NCBI RefSeq assembly: GCF_024753565.1
Contig: NZ_JANTPT010000003.1
Location: 1-64,000, forward strand
DNA length: 64,000 bases
Origin: Mechercharimyces sp. CAU 1602
GTDB lineage: Bacteria > Bacillota > Bacilli > Thermoactinomycetales > JANTPT01
Direction: 5' to 3'
Shown here: positions 52,574 through 59,029 of the stretch, piece after piece
Layout of the letters: each line of letters starts with the position of its first letter
How positions within the stretch are numbered: position 1 is the first letter of the stretch
Position numbers and translations under genes: made by a program
The notes under the pieces: model-generated
What the model saw: only the letters and a program-made list of their open reading frames with translations
Databases searched by the model: none
Told to the model about the DNA's origin: nothing

Positions 52574-52602
52574 TTCGCTTTATAGCGAATAGAAGATATA
52601 AT
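52574..52602 (+). promoter_or_regulatory. Possible promoter of the Lgt-like/radical SAM unit
   Basis: A consensus -10 TATAAT at 52597-52602 with a poor -35 (TTCGCT, 52574-52579) 17 bases upstream, 52 bases before the first gene. Confidence 0.4.
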
Positions 52603-52654: not shown

Positions 52655-53437
52655 GTGCAGTTTCCTGTGATGATCGAGATGGGGTTTTTTACGCTTCATC
52701 CGCATATGTTATTTGAATTTCTCGCTTACTTTATCGGATTCCGCTTCTATATGTGGCAACGAAAAGGAAAGAAATCCTCCCTTTCTTATGTGCAAACCAT
52801 GTGGGTGGTAGTAGGAGCCGCTGTGGGAGCTGCCGCTGGAGCAAAGGTGCTCTACTGGTTAGAAGACCCGATTAAAACCTGGCATTCGTGGAACGATCTA
52901 TATTATTTGATGCAGGGAAAAACGATTGTCGGAGGGCTCTTAGGTGGATTGATCGGTGTGGAGTGGATGAAAAAACGTATGGGTGTCAGGCAATCAACGG
53001 GCGATGATATGGTATTTCCACTTATTGTGGGAATGGTGCTGGGGCGGATCGGTTGCTTTCTGACGGGATTGACCGACCATACCTCAGGCACAGCCACGGC
53101 GATGTGGTGGGGGATCGACTTTGGGGATGGTATGGCGCGGCATCCGACGCAACTGTATGAAATTCTCTTCTTGTGTACATTGGCAGGGGGATTGTTCTTC
53201 TTGCAGCAAAAGAGTACCCCTCATCTGCCATCAGGTGCCCTGTTTCAACTTTTTATGACAAGCTATTTGTTATTTCGCCTCGGAGTGGATCTGTTAAAAC
53301 CCACCCCAGCCCTGCTATGGGGATGGAGCAGCATTCAAGTGGCATGTATGTTAGGACTACTCTACTATCTACGGTTATTGTGGCGCTGGCTCCCTATGGA
53401 AAAGAAGATAGGAATCTATTCTGAAAAGGACGGATGA
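52655..53437 (+). CDS. Lgt-like (prolipoprotein diacylglyceryl transferase family) membrane protein with altered active site
   Basis: A 260-residue, about seven-helix protein. It keeps Lgt family landmarks: LGRIGCFLTG (R131, equivalent to the essential arginine of the Lgt signature) and ARHPTQLYE (151-159). The HGGL motif of true Lgt is VGGL here (V92), the signature asparagine is C134, and the RF..EF block reads RLGVDL. So it is probably not the housekeeping lipoprotein enzyme, though it may use phosphatidylglycerol or a similar lipid. GTG start at 52655. The next gene, a radical SAM enzyme, begins one base after its stop. Confidence 0.75.
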   Translation: MQFPVMIEMGFFTLHPHMLFEFLAYFIGFRFYMWQRKGKKSSLSYVQTMWVVVGAAVGAAAGAKVLYWLEDPIKTWHSWNDLYYLMQGKTIVGGLLGGLIGVEWMKKRMGVRQSTGDDMVFPLIVGMVLGRIGCFLTGLTDHTSGTATAMWWGIDFGDGMARHPTQLYEILFLCTLAGGLFFLQQKSTPHLPSGALFQLFMTSYLLFRLGVDLLKPTPALLWGWSSIQVACMLGLLYYLRLLWRWLPMEKKIGIYSEKDG

Positions 53438-53438
53438 C

Positions 53439-54866
53439 ATGTCTAAAACGACAAAGAATCGACCATATCTCTTTTATGAACTGACGACGAGTATTTGTTC
53501 TACCTGTCTACGGAAAGTAGAAGCGAAAATCGTTTTTCAAGATGAGAAAGTGTATATGCTAAAGCGTTGTCTGCAGCATGGACCTGAAAAAGTGCTACTG
53601 GCTAACGATGTGGAATACTTTAAACAATGCCGAGCATATATCAAACCAGGGGAGATGCCTGCACGTTGGAATACACCTATTCGCTATGGATGCCCGTATG
53701 ATTGTGGATTGTGCCCTGACCATGAACAACATAGCTGCTTAACGTTACTGGAAATTACCGATTCATGCAACTTGGCTTGTCCTATCTGTTATGCCGATTC
53801 TTCGCCGCAACGACAAGATTTTCGCTCGTTAGAGCAGATCGAGTTGATGTTAGATGCAATCGTTGCGAACGAGATCGAGCCGGATATTGTGCAGATCAGT
53901 GGAGGGGAACCTACCATTCATCCGCATTTTTTTGATATTTTAGAAATGGTAAAATCTCGTCCGATTAAGCACATCATGATTAATACCAATGGCATCAAGA
54001 TCGCTTCTGATCCCACCTTTGTCGAGCGGCTGGCCACCTATATGCCAGGCTTAGAAATCTACCTCCAATTTGATAGCTTTGAAGAGGATCCACTGCGGCA
54101 ATTGCGAGGAGTAGATCTACGCAAAGTGCGTGAGAAAGCGATTGCTCGACTAAACGAACATAATATTTCCACAACGCTGGTGGTGACATTAAAGAAAGGT
54201 GTAAACGATCATGAAGTAGGGAGAATTATCGACTACGGCATCAAACAACGCGCCGTTCGCGGGGTAACCTTCCAACCTATTCAAGCGGCAGGACGCTTAC
54301 AAGACTTCGACCCCGCGATCAATCGCCTTACCTTAAGCGAAGTGCGGCAGATGATCCTGGAGCAAGCGGATGTGTTCCGCCCAGAAGATATGATTCCAGT
54401 TCCTTGCCACCCCGATTGTCTCGCCATGGGCTATGCGCTCAAGACGGAAGAGGGAGCGATTCCACTGACAGGCATGATAGATCCGGAGGTGCTCTTACAG
54501 GGAAAACGGAGTACGATCAACTTTGAGCAGGAAGAAGAAGTGAAGGGAAAAGTATTTGATCTCTTTTCTACTCATCACTCGCCTACTTCCTCTGCCAACT
54601 CTCTGAAGGAATTACTCTGTTGCTTGCCCGCAGTTTCCACACCCGCAGAAATCACATATGATCACGTTTTTCGCGTTATCATTATGCAGTTCCTCGATGT
54701 CCATAATTTCGATGTACGCTCTGTCAAAAAGTCATGCGTCCATATCGCTCATCCAGATGGGCGCATTATTCCCTTCGATACGTATAATCTCTTTTATCGC
54801 GATGACCGAGAACAGATTTTAGAAGAGATTCGTGCTGAGATAGGAGGAGTAAAAAGTGGTAGATGA
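53439..54866 (+). CDS. Radical SAM protein of the MJ0619/tetraether-synthase (Tes) type
   Basis: A 475-residue radical SAM enzyme. The SAM cluster cysteines are C110, C114 and C117 (SCNLACPICYADS). A second cysteine set just before it (GCPYDCGLCPDHEQHSC: C85, C89, C92, C100) and the N-terminal SICSTC (C20, C23) are the family marks shared with Methanocaldococcus MJ0619 and archaeal tetraether synthases. QISGGEPTIHP is the SAM-contact motif. Relatives methylate pterins or join lipid tails carbon to carbon; the substrate here is unknown. Its neighbours are both membrane proteins, which favours a lipid substrate. Confidence 0.8.
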   Translation: MSKTTKNRPYLFYELTTSICSTCLRKVEAKIVFQDEKVYMLKRCLQHGPEKVLLANDVEYFKQCRAYIKPGEMPARWNTPIRYGCPYDCGLCPDHEQHSCLTLLEITDSCNLACPICYADSSPQRQDFRSLEQIELMLDAIVANEIEPDIVQISGGEPTIHPHFFDILEMVKSRPIKHIMINTNGIKIASDPTFVERLATYMPGLEIYLQFDSFEEDPLRQLRGVDLRKVREKAIARLNEHNISTTLVVTLKKGVNDHEVGRIIDYGIKQRAVRGVTFQPIQAAGRLQDFDPAINRLTLSEVRQMILEQADVFRPEDMIPVPCHPDCLAMGYALKTEEGAIPLTGMIDPEVLLQGKRSTINFEQEEEVKGKVFDLFSTHHSPTSSANSLKELLCCLPAVSTPAEITYDHVFRVIIMQFLDVHNFDVRSVKKSCVHIAHPDGRIIPFDTYNLFYRDDREQILEEIRAEIGGVKSGR

Positions 54867-55143
54867 AAAGAAGCAAGAAGAGGGGAAAGGTACAAAGGCA
54901 GATGTCTGGATCGGAGTAGGTATCTGCATCGGGATTTCCCTCGTGCTAAGTATTATCCCAATATTGATCGTCTTCATAGGTGTGGCCCAACTGATTGGCG
55001 TTATCCCCGCCTTTATGATTGCCAGACATAAGGGCCGACCTGGCATCGCACAGGGAGTACTTATCACGGCAGTCGCCATATTTCTCTTAAATACCGCCTG
55101 CTGGGGAATGTTATTTGGTGGGGTCATGCTAAACTCACCTTAA
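54856..55143 (+). CDS. Small two-helix membrane protein of the Lgt-like/radical SAM unit
   Basis: A 95-residue protein: a charged N-terminus, one long or two short hydrophobic segments (about residues 18-55), a basic turn (RHKGRPG) and a last helix (about 63-92). GTG start at 54856, with AGGAGGAG 6 bases upstream, overlaps the radical SAM gene by 11 bases, so they are coupled. I do not recognise the family. A membrane subunit or anchor for the enzyme is possible. Confidence 0.75.
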   Translation: MVDEKKQEEGKGTKADVWIGVGICIGISLVLSIIPILIVFIGVAQLIGVIPAFMIARHKGRPGIAQGVLITAVAIFLLNTACWGMLFGGVMLNSP

Positions 55144-55166: not shown

Positions 55167-55233
55167 GAGACGAGGTGATAGGGTCGTCGTAGTTGTAGCA
55201 CATACTTCTACGATCCCATCATCTCGTCTCTTT
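55167..55233 (+). terminator. Terminator of the Lgt-like/radical SAM unit
   Basis: A very long stem (about 23 bp with small interruptions; arms 55167-55192 and 55208-55230), then TTTAATT. From 55234 to 55389 I see no gene; TATAAT at 55265-55270 lacks a good -35. Confidence 0.85.
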
Positions 55234-57872: not shown

Positions 57873-58781
57873 CTAAGCTGACAGAGATTGATTAAGTTGA
57901 TCCTCAACAGTTTGAGGAGTGAGATAATCTAGTCCACTATGAACTCGGTTTCGGTTATACCAGCCCTCAATGAATTGAAAGATTGCCACTTTTGCCTCAT
58001 CAAAGTCTCGATAGCACCTATGATGAACCTCTTCTTTTTTTAAGATAGCATGGAAAGATTCGATACAGGCATTGTCATAGGGACATCCATTTGCACTGAA
58101 GGATTGCTGGATGTCTTTTTGTTGAAGGAATTGGGTAAGTTCCTCACTCGTATATTGGGAACCTAAGTCCGAATGTAAGATAAGTCCCGGAGCAGTTGGT
58201 TGCGATAGACAAGCATTTTTGATGGCTTTCATGACCACCTCGGTGGTCATCCGACGAGAAAAAGAATAACCAACAATTTTCTTCGAATGGAGATCCATAA
58301 CTGAGGCTAAATAGCACCAACCATCTTGAGAGGTGTGAACATAGGTCAGATCCGATACCCACTTCTGATTTAATCCCATTGTGGTGAAATCCCTCTTTAA
58401 GAGGTTCGTGCGTTCTTGGATGGATGTTTTCTTGGAATAGGGTCGGAATTTCTTATGGGTGATCGAGAAGATGCCCATTTTACGCATCAAGCGCTGCACC
58501 CTCTTTAGGCTCAACGACAGCCCTTGATTAAACAGCATCCGATGAATCTTAGGTGCTCCATAGCGTTGTTTGCTTTTTCGGTAAATCTCAAGGATCATTC
58601 GCTTCAATTTCTGGTTCTCTCGGTCACGAGAAGATGGTTTTTGATTCAACGATCGGTAGTACGTACTTCTTGGCACATCGAGAGTCTCACACACCATTTG
58701 CACGGGATGTTGCTTCTTGATCTCTTGAATCGCAGTTAAAACCTCTTTGTCGGCTACTTTTTTGCGAATATGGCCATAGCC
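57873..58781 (-). CDS. IS3-family transposase OrfB (IS-A)
   Basis: DDE integrase-type transposase, reached by ribosomal frameshifting from orfA. The catalytic acids lie in WVSDLTYVH, LHSDLGSQYTS and CIESFHAILKKEE; the HTH_21-like N-terminus (VCETLDVPRSTYYR) and C-terminal RVHSGLDYLTP are intact. The open frame extends upstream to 58901 inside orfA, but real coding begins near the lysine-rich overlap (KKGYGHIRKK), which I place at about 58781. All family blocks are present, so it may be active. Confidence 0.88.
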   Translation of the reverse strand, partial: GYGHIRKKVADKEVLTAIQEIKKQHPVQMVCETLDVPRSTYYRSLNQKPSSRDRENQKLKRMILEIYRKSKQRYGAPKIHRMLFNQGLSLSLKRVQRLMRKMGIFSITHKKFRPYSKKTSIQERTNLLKRDFTTMGLNQKWVSDLTYVHTSQDGWCYLASVMDLHSKKIVGYSFSRRMTTEVVMKAIKNACLSQPTAPGLILHSDLGSQYTSEELTQFLQQKDIQQSFSANGCPYDNACIESFHAILKKEEVHHRCYRDFDEAKVAIFQFIEGWYNRNRVHSGLDYLTPQTVEDQLNQSLSA

Positions 58782-59029
58782 TTTTTTAGGATTTCGTTTT
58801 CTTCCTTTAGCTTCAACATCTCTTTCTTCATCTGCTGATAGTCCGCAGGGGTCATTTTCTCCTCTCCGGTTCCTTCGATGGGAGTGAAGGCTTTGATCCA
58901 TTTGTAAATTGTTACTTCCGATAGGCCATATTCGCTACTTAATTTTCGAACCGATTGGCCCGATTGATAGAGCTCGACCACCATTTCTTTGAACTCCCAA
59001 TTGTATTTCCCATTCGTTTTTCGTTCCAT
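58754..59029 (-). CDS. IS3-family transposase OrfA (IS-A)
   Basis: A 91-residue HTH_8 DNA-binding protein: KYNWEFKEMVVELYQSGQSV, then the helix-turn-helix LSSEYGLSEVTIYKWIK and a C-terminal leucine zipper ending in LKKAMAIFAKK. A run of As near its end gives the usual -1 frameshift site leading into orfB. Confidence 0.88.
   Translation of the reverse strand: MERKTNGKYNWEFKEMVVELYQSGQSVRKLSSEYGLSEVTIYKWIKAFTPIEGTGEEKMTPADYQQMKKEMLKLKEENEILKKAMAIFAKK

Follow-up and report, generated by a model that had tools for sequence, protein, structure and literature searches.

The locus consists of three closely spaced genes on the forward strand, which encode an Lgt-like enzyme (LgtX), a radical SAM enzyme, and a small membrane protein (Cys-tail protein), followed by a hairpin. 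The window is the whole 64,000-nucleotide stretch of Mechercharimyces sp. CAU 1602 DNA that was analysed, and its numbering is used for the features below.

52655..53437, forward strand: lgtX, encoding an Lgt paralogue of 260 aa with the Lgt fold (ORF calls, PF01790 search, alignment, structure prediction); changed residues H17, V92, and C134 (E. coli Y26, H103, and N146); kept residues R131, E169, Y204, R208, D212, and K215.
53045..53056, forward strand: codons of R131-I-G-C134, the altered Lgt signature (Asn to Cys in 31/31 homologues).
53439..54866, forward strand: Tes/TrsS-like radical SAM enzyme, 475 aa (profile searches, alignment, tree), with a rubredoxin-type motif, an N-terminal auxiliary cluster, a SAM cluster, and conserved C-terminal C323, C394, C395, and C433 plus M416.
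54856..55143, forward strand: Cys-tail protein, 95 aa, with three hydrophobic segments, the last of which has the invariant C82 thirteen residues before the C-terminus.
55099..55101, forward strand: codon of C82, the invariant tail cysteine and proposed lipid acceptor.
55167..55230, forward strand: hairpin and U-rich tail, the probable common terminator.

The reading frames and coordinates of the three genes, the 1-base gap between lgtX and the radical SAM gene, and the 11-base overlap between the radical SAM and Cys-tail genes agreed with an earlier note on this DNA, as did the shared terminator: a single hairpin (55167-55230) follows the third gene. The folding-energy analysis gave -38.9 kcal/mol and a z value of -4.0 for this hairpin, which precedes the U-rich tail; it was absent from the output of a simple terminator scan. 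The transcript of the three genes probably ends there. The divergent gene for a secreted glycerophosphodiesterase, which had also been described, was present (PF03009, 1.7e-53). This enzyme was considered as a fourth member of the unit and rejected, as a homologue was found beside 0 of the 27 other loci. A perfect inverted repeat, TTCGCT-TTAT-AGCGAA (window 52574-52589), lies upstream of a TATAAT sequence (52597-52602) before lgtX and is a possible operator. Inspection by eye of the regions upstream of the loci gave no common motif that would point to a shared regulator or a sporulation promoter. An IS3-type transposase-like ORF is located on the reverse strand about 2.7 kb downstream of the unit (window 57873-58901).

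LgtX was found in 26 of 398 Bacilli genomes and the radical SAM enzyme in exactly the same 26, neither occurring alone. The two genes were adjacent in 26/26 of these genomes and mostly overlapped. The identity of the radical SAM enzyme was 63-76% across many Bacilli families, which is conservation far beyond chance; the corresponding values were 44-62% for LgtX and 31-40% for the Cys-tail protein, the fastest evolving component. In Bacilli, no flanking genes beyond the three were conserved. Within the order of the host, the unit occurred in 5 of 42 genomes, and this patchy distribution suggests block-wise gain and loss. The pair was also present on a megaplasmid of Persicobacter psychrovividus (Bacteroidota; 41% identity for LgtX and 59% for the radical SAM enzyme) and in two further Bacillota classes (G582 and the G700 group). 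A divergent pair was observed on plasmids of Mycobacterium avium and M. branderi and in Nonomuraea (Actinomycetota), and the mycobacterial radical SAM enzyme has no N-terminal auxiliary cluster cysteines. Co-occurrence in the same Bacilli genomes, constant adjacency, and the pairs in further phyla show that the neighbours are conserved together; a lack of such conservation would, according to the earlier note, have spoken against its reading. A phage origin was rejected, as no match was obtained among 50,697 phage records.

A whole-genome profile search of the host gave a second PF01790 match, on contig C2, with 265 bits compared with 81 bits for LgtX. This canonical Lgt adjoins an hprK-like gene and has intact HGGL and GRWGNFMN motifs. 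Because a separate normal Lgt is encoded in the same genome, LgtX is a paralogue and not the only Lgt of the cell, a doubt that the earlier note had raised. Normal Lgt was present in eleven sampled relatives, and the LgtX type scored above the cut-off only in those with the radical SAM gene. The score of LgtX lies above the cut-off of the Pfam LGT family (PF01790; 81 vs 24.9 bits) and below those of the curated NCBIfam Lgt families (51.7 vs 334 for NF000778 and 41.5 vs 118.9 for TIGR00544). The predicted structure of LgtX (mean pLDDT 85) matched only E. coli Lgt among solved structures (Foldseek E 4e-7), and its comparison with 5azb gave a VIA-align Z of 15.9 and an rmsd of 4.3 over 236 residues; the weaker VIA-align rows below 5azb were disregarded as common helical matches.

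We aligned 31 LgtX sequences with the Lgt of the host genome and with that of E. coli, whose residue numbering agrees with the papers. The GRIG arginine (R131) and the HPTQLYE block are kept, and V92 and C134 occupy the positions of H103 and N146, as previously described; a third change, H17 at the position of Y26, had been overlooked. In all 31 LgtX sequences, H103 is replaced by V, L, or M, N146 by C, and Y26 by H; R143, G154, E202, Y235, and R239 are unchanged, E243 is D or E, and R246 is K or R. The LgtX proteins of G582 and G700 have the changes at H103 and N146 in common and keep a tyrosine at Y26, so that H103 and N146 are replaced in every aligned lineage and Y26 in all but two. In E. 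coli Lgt, Y26, H103, R143, N146, G154, and R239 are each required (PMC4728403; PMC13251419). Binding and activation of the phospholipid have been assigned to R143 and R239, and R143, E202, Y235, R239, and G154 are essential or lie in the substrate pocket (PMC4728403; PMC13251419). Among the required residues, LgtX keeps only R143, G154, and R239. Because the phospholipid-binding R143 and R239 are unchanged, LgtX as judged from its residues keeps the donor (phospholipid) side, with several other essential positions swapped together; the replaced positions would serve the acceptor. LgtX thus resembles Lgt (PF01790; E. coli 5AZB) in its fold, the GRxG arginine, G154, E202, Y235, R239, and the acidic/basic pair 243/246. 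It differs in the three replacements at positions essential in E. coli, in a shorter head region, in the radical SAM gene that is always beside it, and in the normal Lgt that accompanies it in the genome. The LgtX tree has long branches and was used for its broad order alone, which is G582, then G700, then Bacilli with Persicobacter, in agreement with the radical SAM tree. In genomes of the same order as the host, two other loci, L122 (G025:C1:139727-140332) and L123 (G036:C11:8656-9207), encode degenerate Lgt-like proteins of 242 and 245 aa, respectively, without the GRxG arginine and HGG motifs.

With regard to the radical SAM enzyme, the rubredoxin motif C20-X2-C23-X20-C44-X2-H47 corresponds to the C-X2-C-X20-C-X2-H reported for MJ0619/GDGT-MAS, C85-X3-C89-X2-C92 with a conserved His matches the N-terminal cluster of that enzyme, and the SAM cluster is C110-X3-C114-X2-C117. 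The residues C20/C23/C44/H47, C85/C89/C92, and C110/C114/C117 are invariant in the alignment; both cysteine sets of MJ0619 and the tetraether synthases are present, as had been claimed. M416, the equivalent of M439, is also invariant. The C-terminal cysteines are rearranged (PFC to PFD, CC to SC, and an extra LLCC compared with Tes), and the model is poor in the region of the C-terminal [Fe4S4] cluster. The best NCBIfam match was TrsS (NF045646), with 327 bits against a cut-off of 490, and the score for Tes (NF045702) was 290.6 bits against a cut-off of 450. In the maximum-likelihood tree, the window enzyme and the other LgtX-linked enzymes fell outside the Tes+TrsS clade (support 100/99), which contains a true TrsS (L102, 707 bits). 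By sequence, the radical SAM enzyme is a separate family of the Tes/TrsS branch and belongs to neither. The earlier label of an MJ0619/Tes-type enzyme therefore holds for the motifs and layout and fails for family membership, since both cut-offs are missed and the enzyme lies outside the clade of both.

The closest solved structure in the sequence-level search was GDGT-MAS (7tol, E 1e-70), and the predicted model, although poor (pLDDT 63), still gave GDGT-MAS as its best structural match (Foldseek E 2e-31). Full-length homology to Tes/GDGT-MAS (MJ0619, 7TOL) includes the rubredoxin motif, the N-terminal auxiliary and SAM clusters, and the Met at the M439 position, whereas the window enzyme is bacterial and paired with LgtX. 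The domain layout is shared with the TrsS radical SAM (seleno)protein, whose loci lack LgtX. The statement in the earlier note that MJ0619 methylates pterins is out of date: MJ0619 is the tetraether synthase of archaea, for which the authors were unable to corroborate a pterin methylase activity (PMC9433317). The pterin methylase reading of the window enzyme was set aside on this literature. A search of the host genome for a further homologue gave only a short stretch of 33% identity in another radical SAM gene.

We scanned every small membrane ORF on the same strand within 400 bases, with or without a cysteine. A Cys-tail membrane protein was present beside the pair in 33 of 34 LgtX loci, a count that includes loci ill-suited to the scan (merged ORFs in L063 and L065, opposite strand in L012); a search near the remaining locus, L048, gave no Cys-tail gene. 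Two such genes were found in several loci (L038, L063, and L064). In 37/37 tail proteins, a cysteine is found in the last transmembrane helix, at a distance of 1-15 residues from the C-terminus. This cysteine follows the last Lys/Arg by a median of 21 residues, and no Lys/Arg comes after it in 34 of the 37. The background was 17 of 89 other ORFs ending in a transmembrane segment in the same loci, and 12 of 34 when short ones alone were counted. A single case would mean little on this background; the agreement of all groups carries weight. Among the radical SAM loci without LgtX, a Cys-tail neighbour was seen in only 1 of 20, a dubious 49-aa ORF in L113, and on this neighbourhood evidence the Cys-tail protein goes with LgtX.

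The tail proteins can be sorted into some ten groups, between which sequence similarity is slight or absent. Their ends read FLLNAACFG in most Bacilli, AGICTGLNP in Actinomycetota, GTGICGSLLS in Persicobacter, and LLLGTCSVLF in G700, and one Bacilli family consists of a B-box-like zinc finger and one helix ending in AICGAMI. A cysteine at the outer end of the helix after a positive region is predicted by the positive-inside rule for 37/37 proteins. Because the cysteine follows the last Lys/Arg by about 21 residues and positive charges are absent after it, its predicted position is the outer face, like that of a lipoprotein cysteine, a placement resting on the positive-inside rule only. The tail would look like the signal segment of a lipoprotein that has become a C-terminus, with a positive region inside, a hydrophobic helix, and a cysteine at the outer face, to which the active site of Lgt opens. 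A lipobox ([LVI][ASTVI][GAS]C) was read in 0 of 37 tails. The fast evolution of the tail is as might be expected of a substrate. Weak candidates for Cys-tail paralogues elsewhere were found in G161 and G331 (one each). The MYXO-CTERM/myxosortase system likewise has a C-terminal membrane tag that contains an invariant cysteine; there, the cysteine-bearing signature motif is placed first, and an intramembrane protease serves as the partner (PMC11980579). In the Cys-tail proteins, by contrast, the cysteine lies at the distal end of the last helix, with an Lgt paralogue as the partner. The small membrane protein, to which the earlier note gave no role, is a constant component of the system.

We propose, with a probability of roughly 40%, that the locus encodes a three-protein lipid-modification system: LgtX would S-lipidate the tail cysteine, and remodelling of the lipid would fall to the radical SAM enzyme. 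Of this, the gene set, the altered residues, and the rule for the tails are observations; we infer the topology, acceptor, donor, and radical step. The gene set occurs across Bacillota, Bacteroidota, and Actinomycetota, besides a housekeeping Lgt where this was checked. LgtX would bind a glycerophospholipid, for example phosphatidylglycerol, in the Lgt-type pocket (R131, E169, Y204, and R208) at the outer membrane face and would transfer diacylglyceryl as a thioether to the cysteine at the end of the Cys-tail protein's last transmembrane helix. Coordinated replacement at H103, Y26, and N146 may fit LgtX to this non-lipobox acceptor. More weakly, the cytosolic radical SAM enzyme may prepare or edit the lipid by hydrogen abstraction from an inert chain carbon and formation of a C-C or C-S bond, in the manner of tetraether synthase. 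The protein would thereby receive an unusual lipid (joined, branched, or sulphur-bearing). Work on lipid chains is suggested by family resemblance, and the enzyme could act either before or after the transfer.

Several observations count against this proposal, namely the 0/37 lipoboxes, the missing tail in L048, the tail on the opposite strand in L012, and the missing auxiliary-cluster cysteines of the mycobacterial enzyme. A cytosolic radical enzyme and an outer-face transferase would also have to share a lipid. LgtX may perform another reaction or none, because it has lost three residues that E. coli Lgt requires. The suggestion of lipid chemistry for both enzymes made in the earlier note stands as the best guess.

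The alternative that survives best, though we consider it unlikely, is that a membrane lipid is made and no protein is lipidated. The radical SAM enzyme would join or methylate lipid tails, as in Tes and Mss, LgtX would present phosphatidylglycerol or move diacylglyceryl to a lipid thiol, and the Cys-tail protein would be an assembly factor. The nearest solved relative is indeed a tetraether lipid synthase, which passes through a thiolated lipid intermediate (PMC9433317). In addition, genes for the lipid coupling enzymes Mss and Ger have been reported in Bacillota, including a few Paenibacillaceae (PMC13274423). Mss, a bacterial membrane-spanning lipid synthase, was also likened to Tes by its authors and acts on bacterial lipid tails; it was studied in anaerobes together with Ger (PMC13274423). 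However, the window enzyme lies outside the Tes+TrsS clade with 290 bits against the 450 for Tes, and the invariant tail cysteine in an otherwise variable small protein is left unaccounted for. It is because this cysteine is invariant that the protein-lipidation proposal departs from the making of a cross-linked membrane lipid.

It is distinctly unlikely that the radical SAM enzyme works like TrsS, with a small molecule or the tail cysteine as the target of its sulphur or selenium chemistry and LgtX as a mere membrane partner. TrsS is the best NCBIfam match (327 bits), and TrsS-type loci appear to adjoin genes resembling those for cysteine desulfurase, C-GCAxxG-C-C, and XdhC proteins; further related radical enzymes are paired with methyltransferases. 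Next to the LgtX-linked enzymes, however, no such gene is conserved, and the phospholipid pocket is retained in LgtX.

We regard as improbable the explanation that LgtX is a second, divergent prolipoprotein diacylglyceryl transferase for lipobox proteins and that the other two genes are accidental neighbours. The PF01790 match and the Lgt fold agree with it, and one paper reports that second Lgt genes are common and that N146C occurs in the Lgt of Leptospira, which partly complements E. coli (PMC13251419). This 2026 paper describes a mycobacterial second Lgt, MSMEG_5408, with the same Y26H and N146C changes as LgtX; the passage on it presents a presumed low-activity Lgt and mentions no radical SAM or tail protein as a partner (PMC13251419). 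The mycobacterial plasmid lgtX genes carry changes of the MSMEG_5408 type (Y26H, N146C) and lie close to a radical SAM gene. Accidental neighbours are at odds with the finding that LgtX and the radical enzyme, in several phyla, co-occur perfectly and are adjacent, and with the Cys-tail gene in 33/34 loci. Most improbable is a sactipeptide-like route, in which the Cys-tail protein resembles a precursor peptide, the radical SAM enzyme directly cross-links or alkylates its cysteine, and LgtX anchors what is formed. The protein is small and fast evolving, has one fixed residue, is duplicated in some loci, and is encoded next to a radical SAM gene. However, neither a leader peptide nor a recognition domain was seen, the predicted position of the cysteine at the outer face is remote from a cytosolic enzyme, and no peptide-maturase family scored above its cut-off in the NCBIfam search.

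We found no paper in the open literature that describes a unit of Lgt and radical SAM enzymes together. Both enzymes belong to known superfamilies yet miss curated membership, and their combination with a dedicated Cys-tail protein appears to be new; the undescribed conserved system suspected in the earlier note is real, conserved, and apparently undescribed. There is a real chance that it represents a new kind of lipidation pathway. In its full form, in which an Lgt paralogue attaches a radical-SAM-remodelled glycerolipid (cross-linked, branched, or sulphur-bearing) to the C-terminal cysteine of a dedicated transmembrane protein and so yields an uncleaved "tail-lipidated" membrane protein in three phyla, this remains doubtful. 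About 1,300 sequenced genomes are reported to carry two Lgt copies (PMC13251419), and Tes-like radical enzymes occur in bacteria without known biphytanyl lipids (PMC9433317). The locus joins one class of second Lgt and one class of Tes-like enzyme in a gene set that is widespread and includes an evident candidate for the substrate, and both can therefore be addressed together. If the proposal is true, a C-terminal transmembrane cysteine is lipidated by an Lgt relative, and Tes-type chemistry has a new use in bacteria.

The gene context differed between branches of the radical SAM enzymes. TrsS-like radical SAM genes are beside cysteine desulfurase-like genes in L143 (1-5891) and L097 (7008-12294), and L143 also contains C-GCAxxG-C-C-, CoA-ligase-, and XdhC-like genes, a set suggestive of sulphur or selenium chemistry. 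In two genera of the G700 group (L098, 8116-9277; L141, 4318-5428), an isoprenylcysteine-methyltransferase-like (ICMT-like) membrane protein and a DUF4395 protein are encoded between the radical SAM gene and lgtX. Because of this difference in context, the chemistry may also differ between branches. A related radical SAM enzyme is paired with a methyltransferase, without LgtX, in L061 (5193-8339) and L099 (5406-7919), and the Mycolicibacterium radical SAM/methyltransferase pairing also has CcdA and a thioredoxin-like protein. In G582, an ArsP_1 permease gene overlaps the end of lgtX (L096, 8944-9822). On the Persicobacter megaplasmid (L060, 11572-17001), a very large gene that resembles a polyunsaturated fatty acid synthase with repeated carrier domains is found some 2 kb away from the unit.
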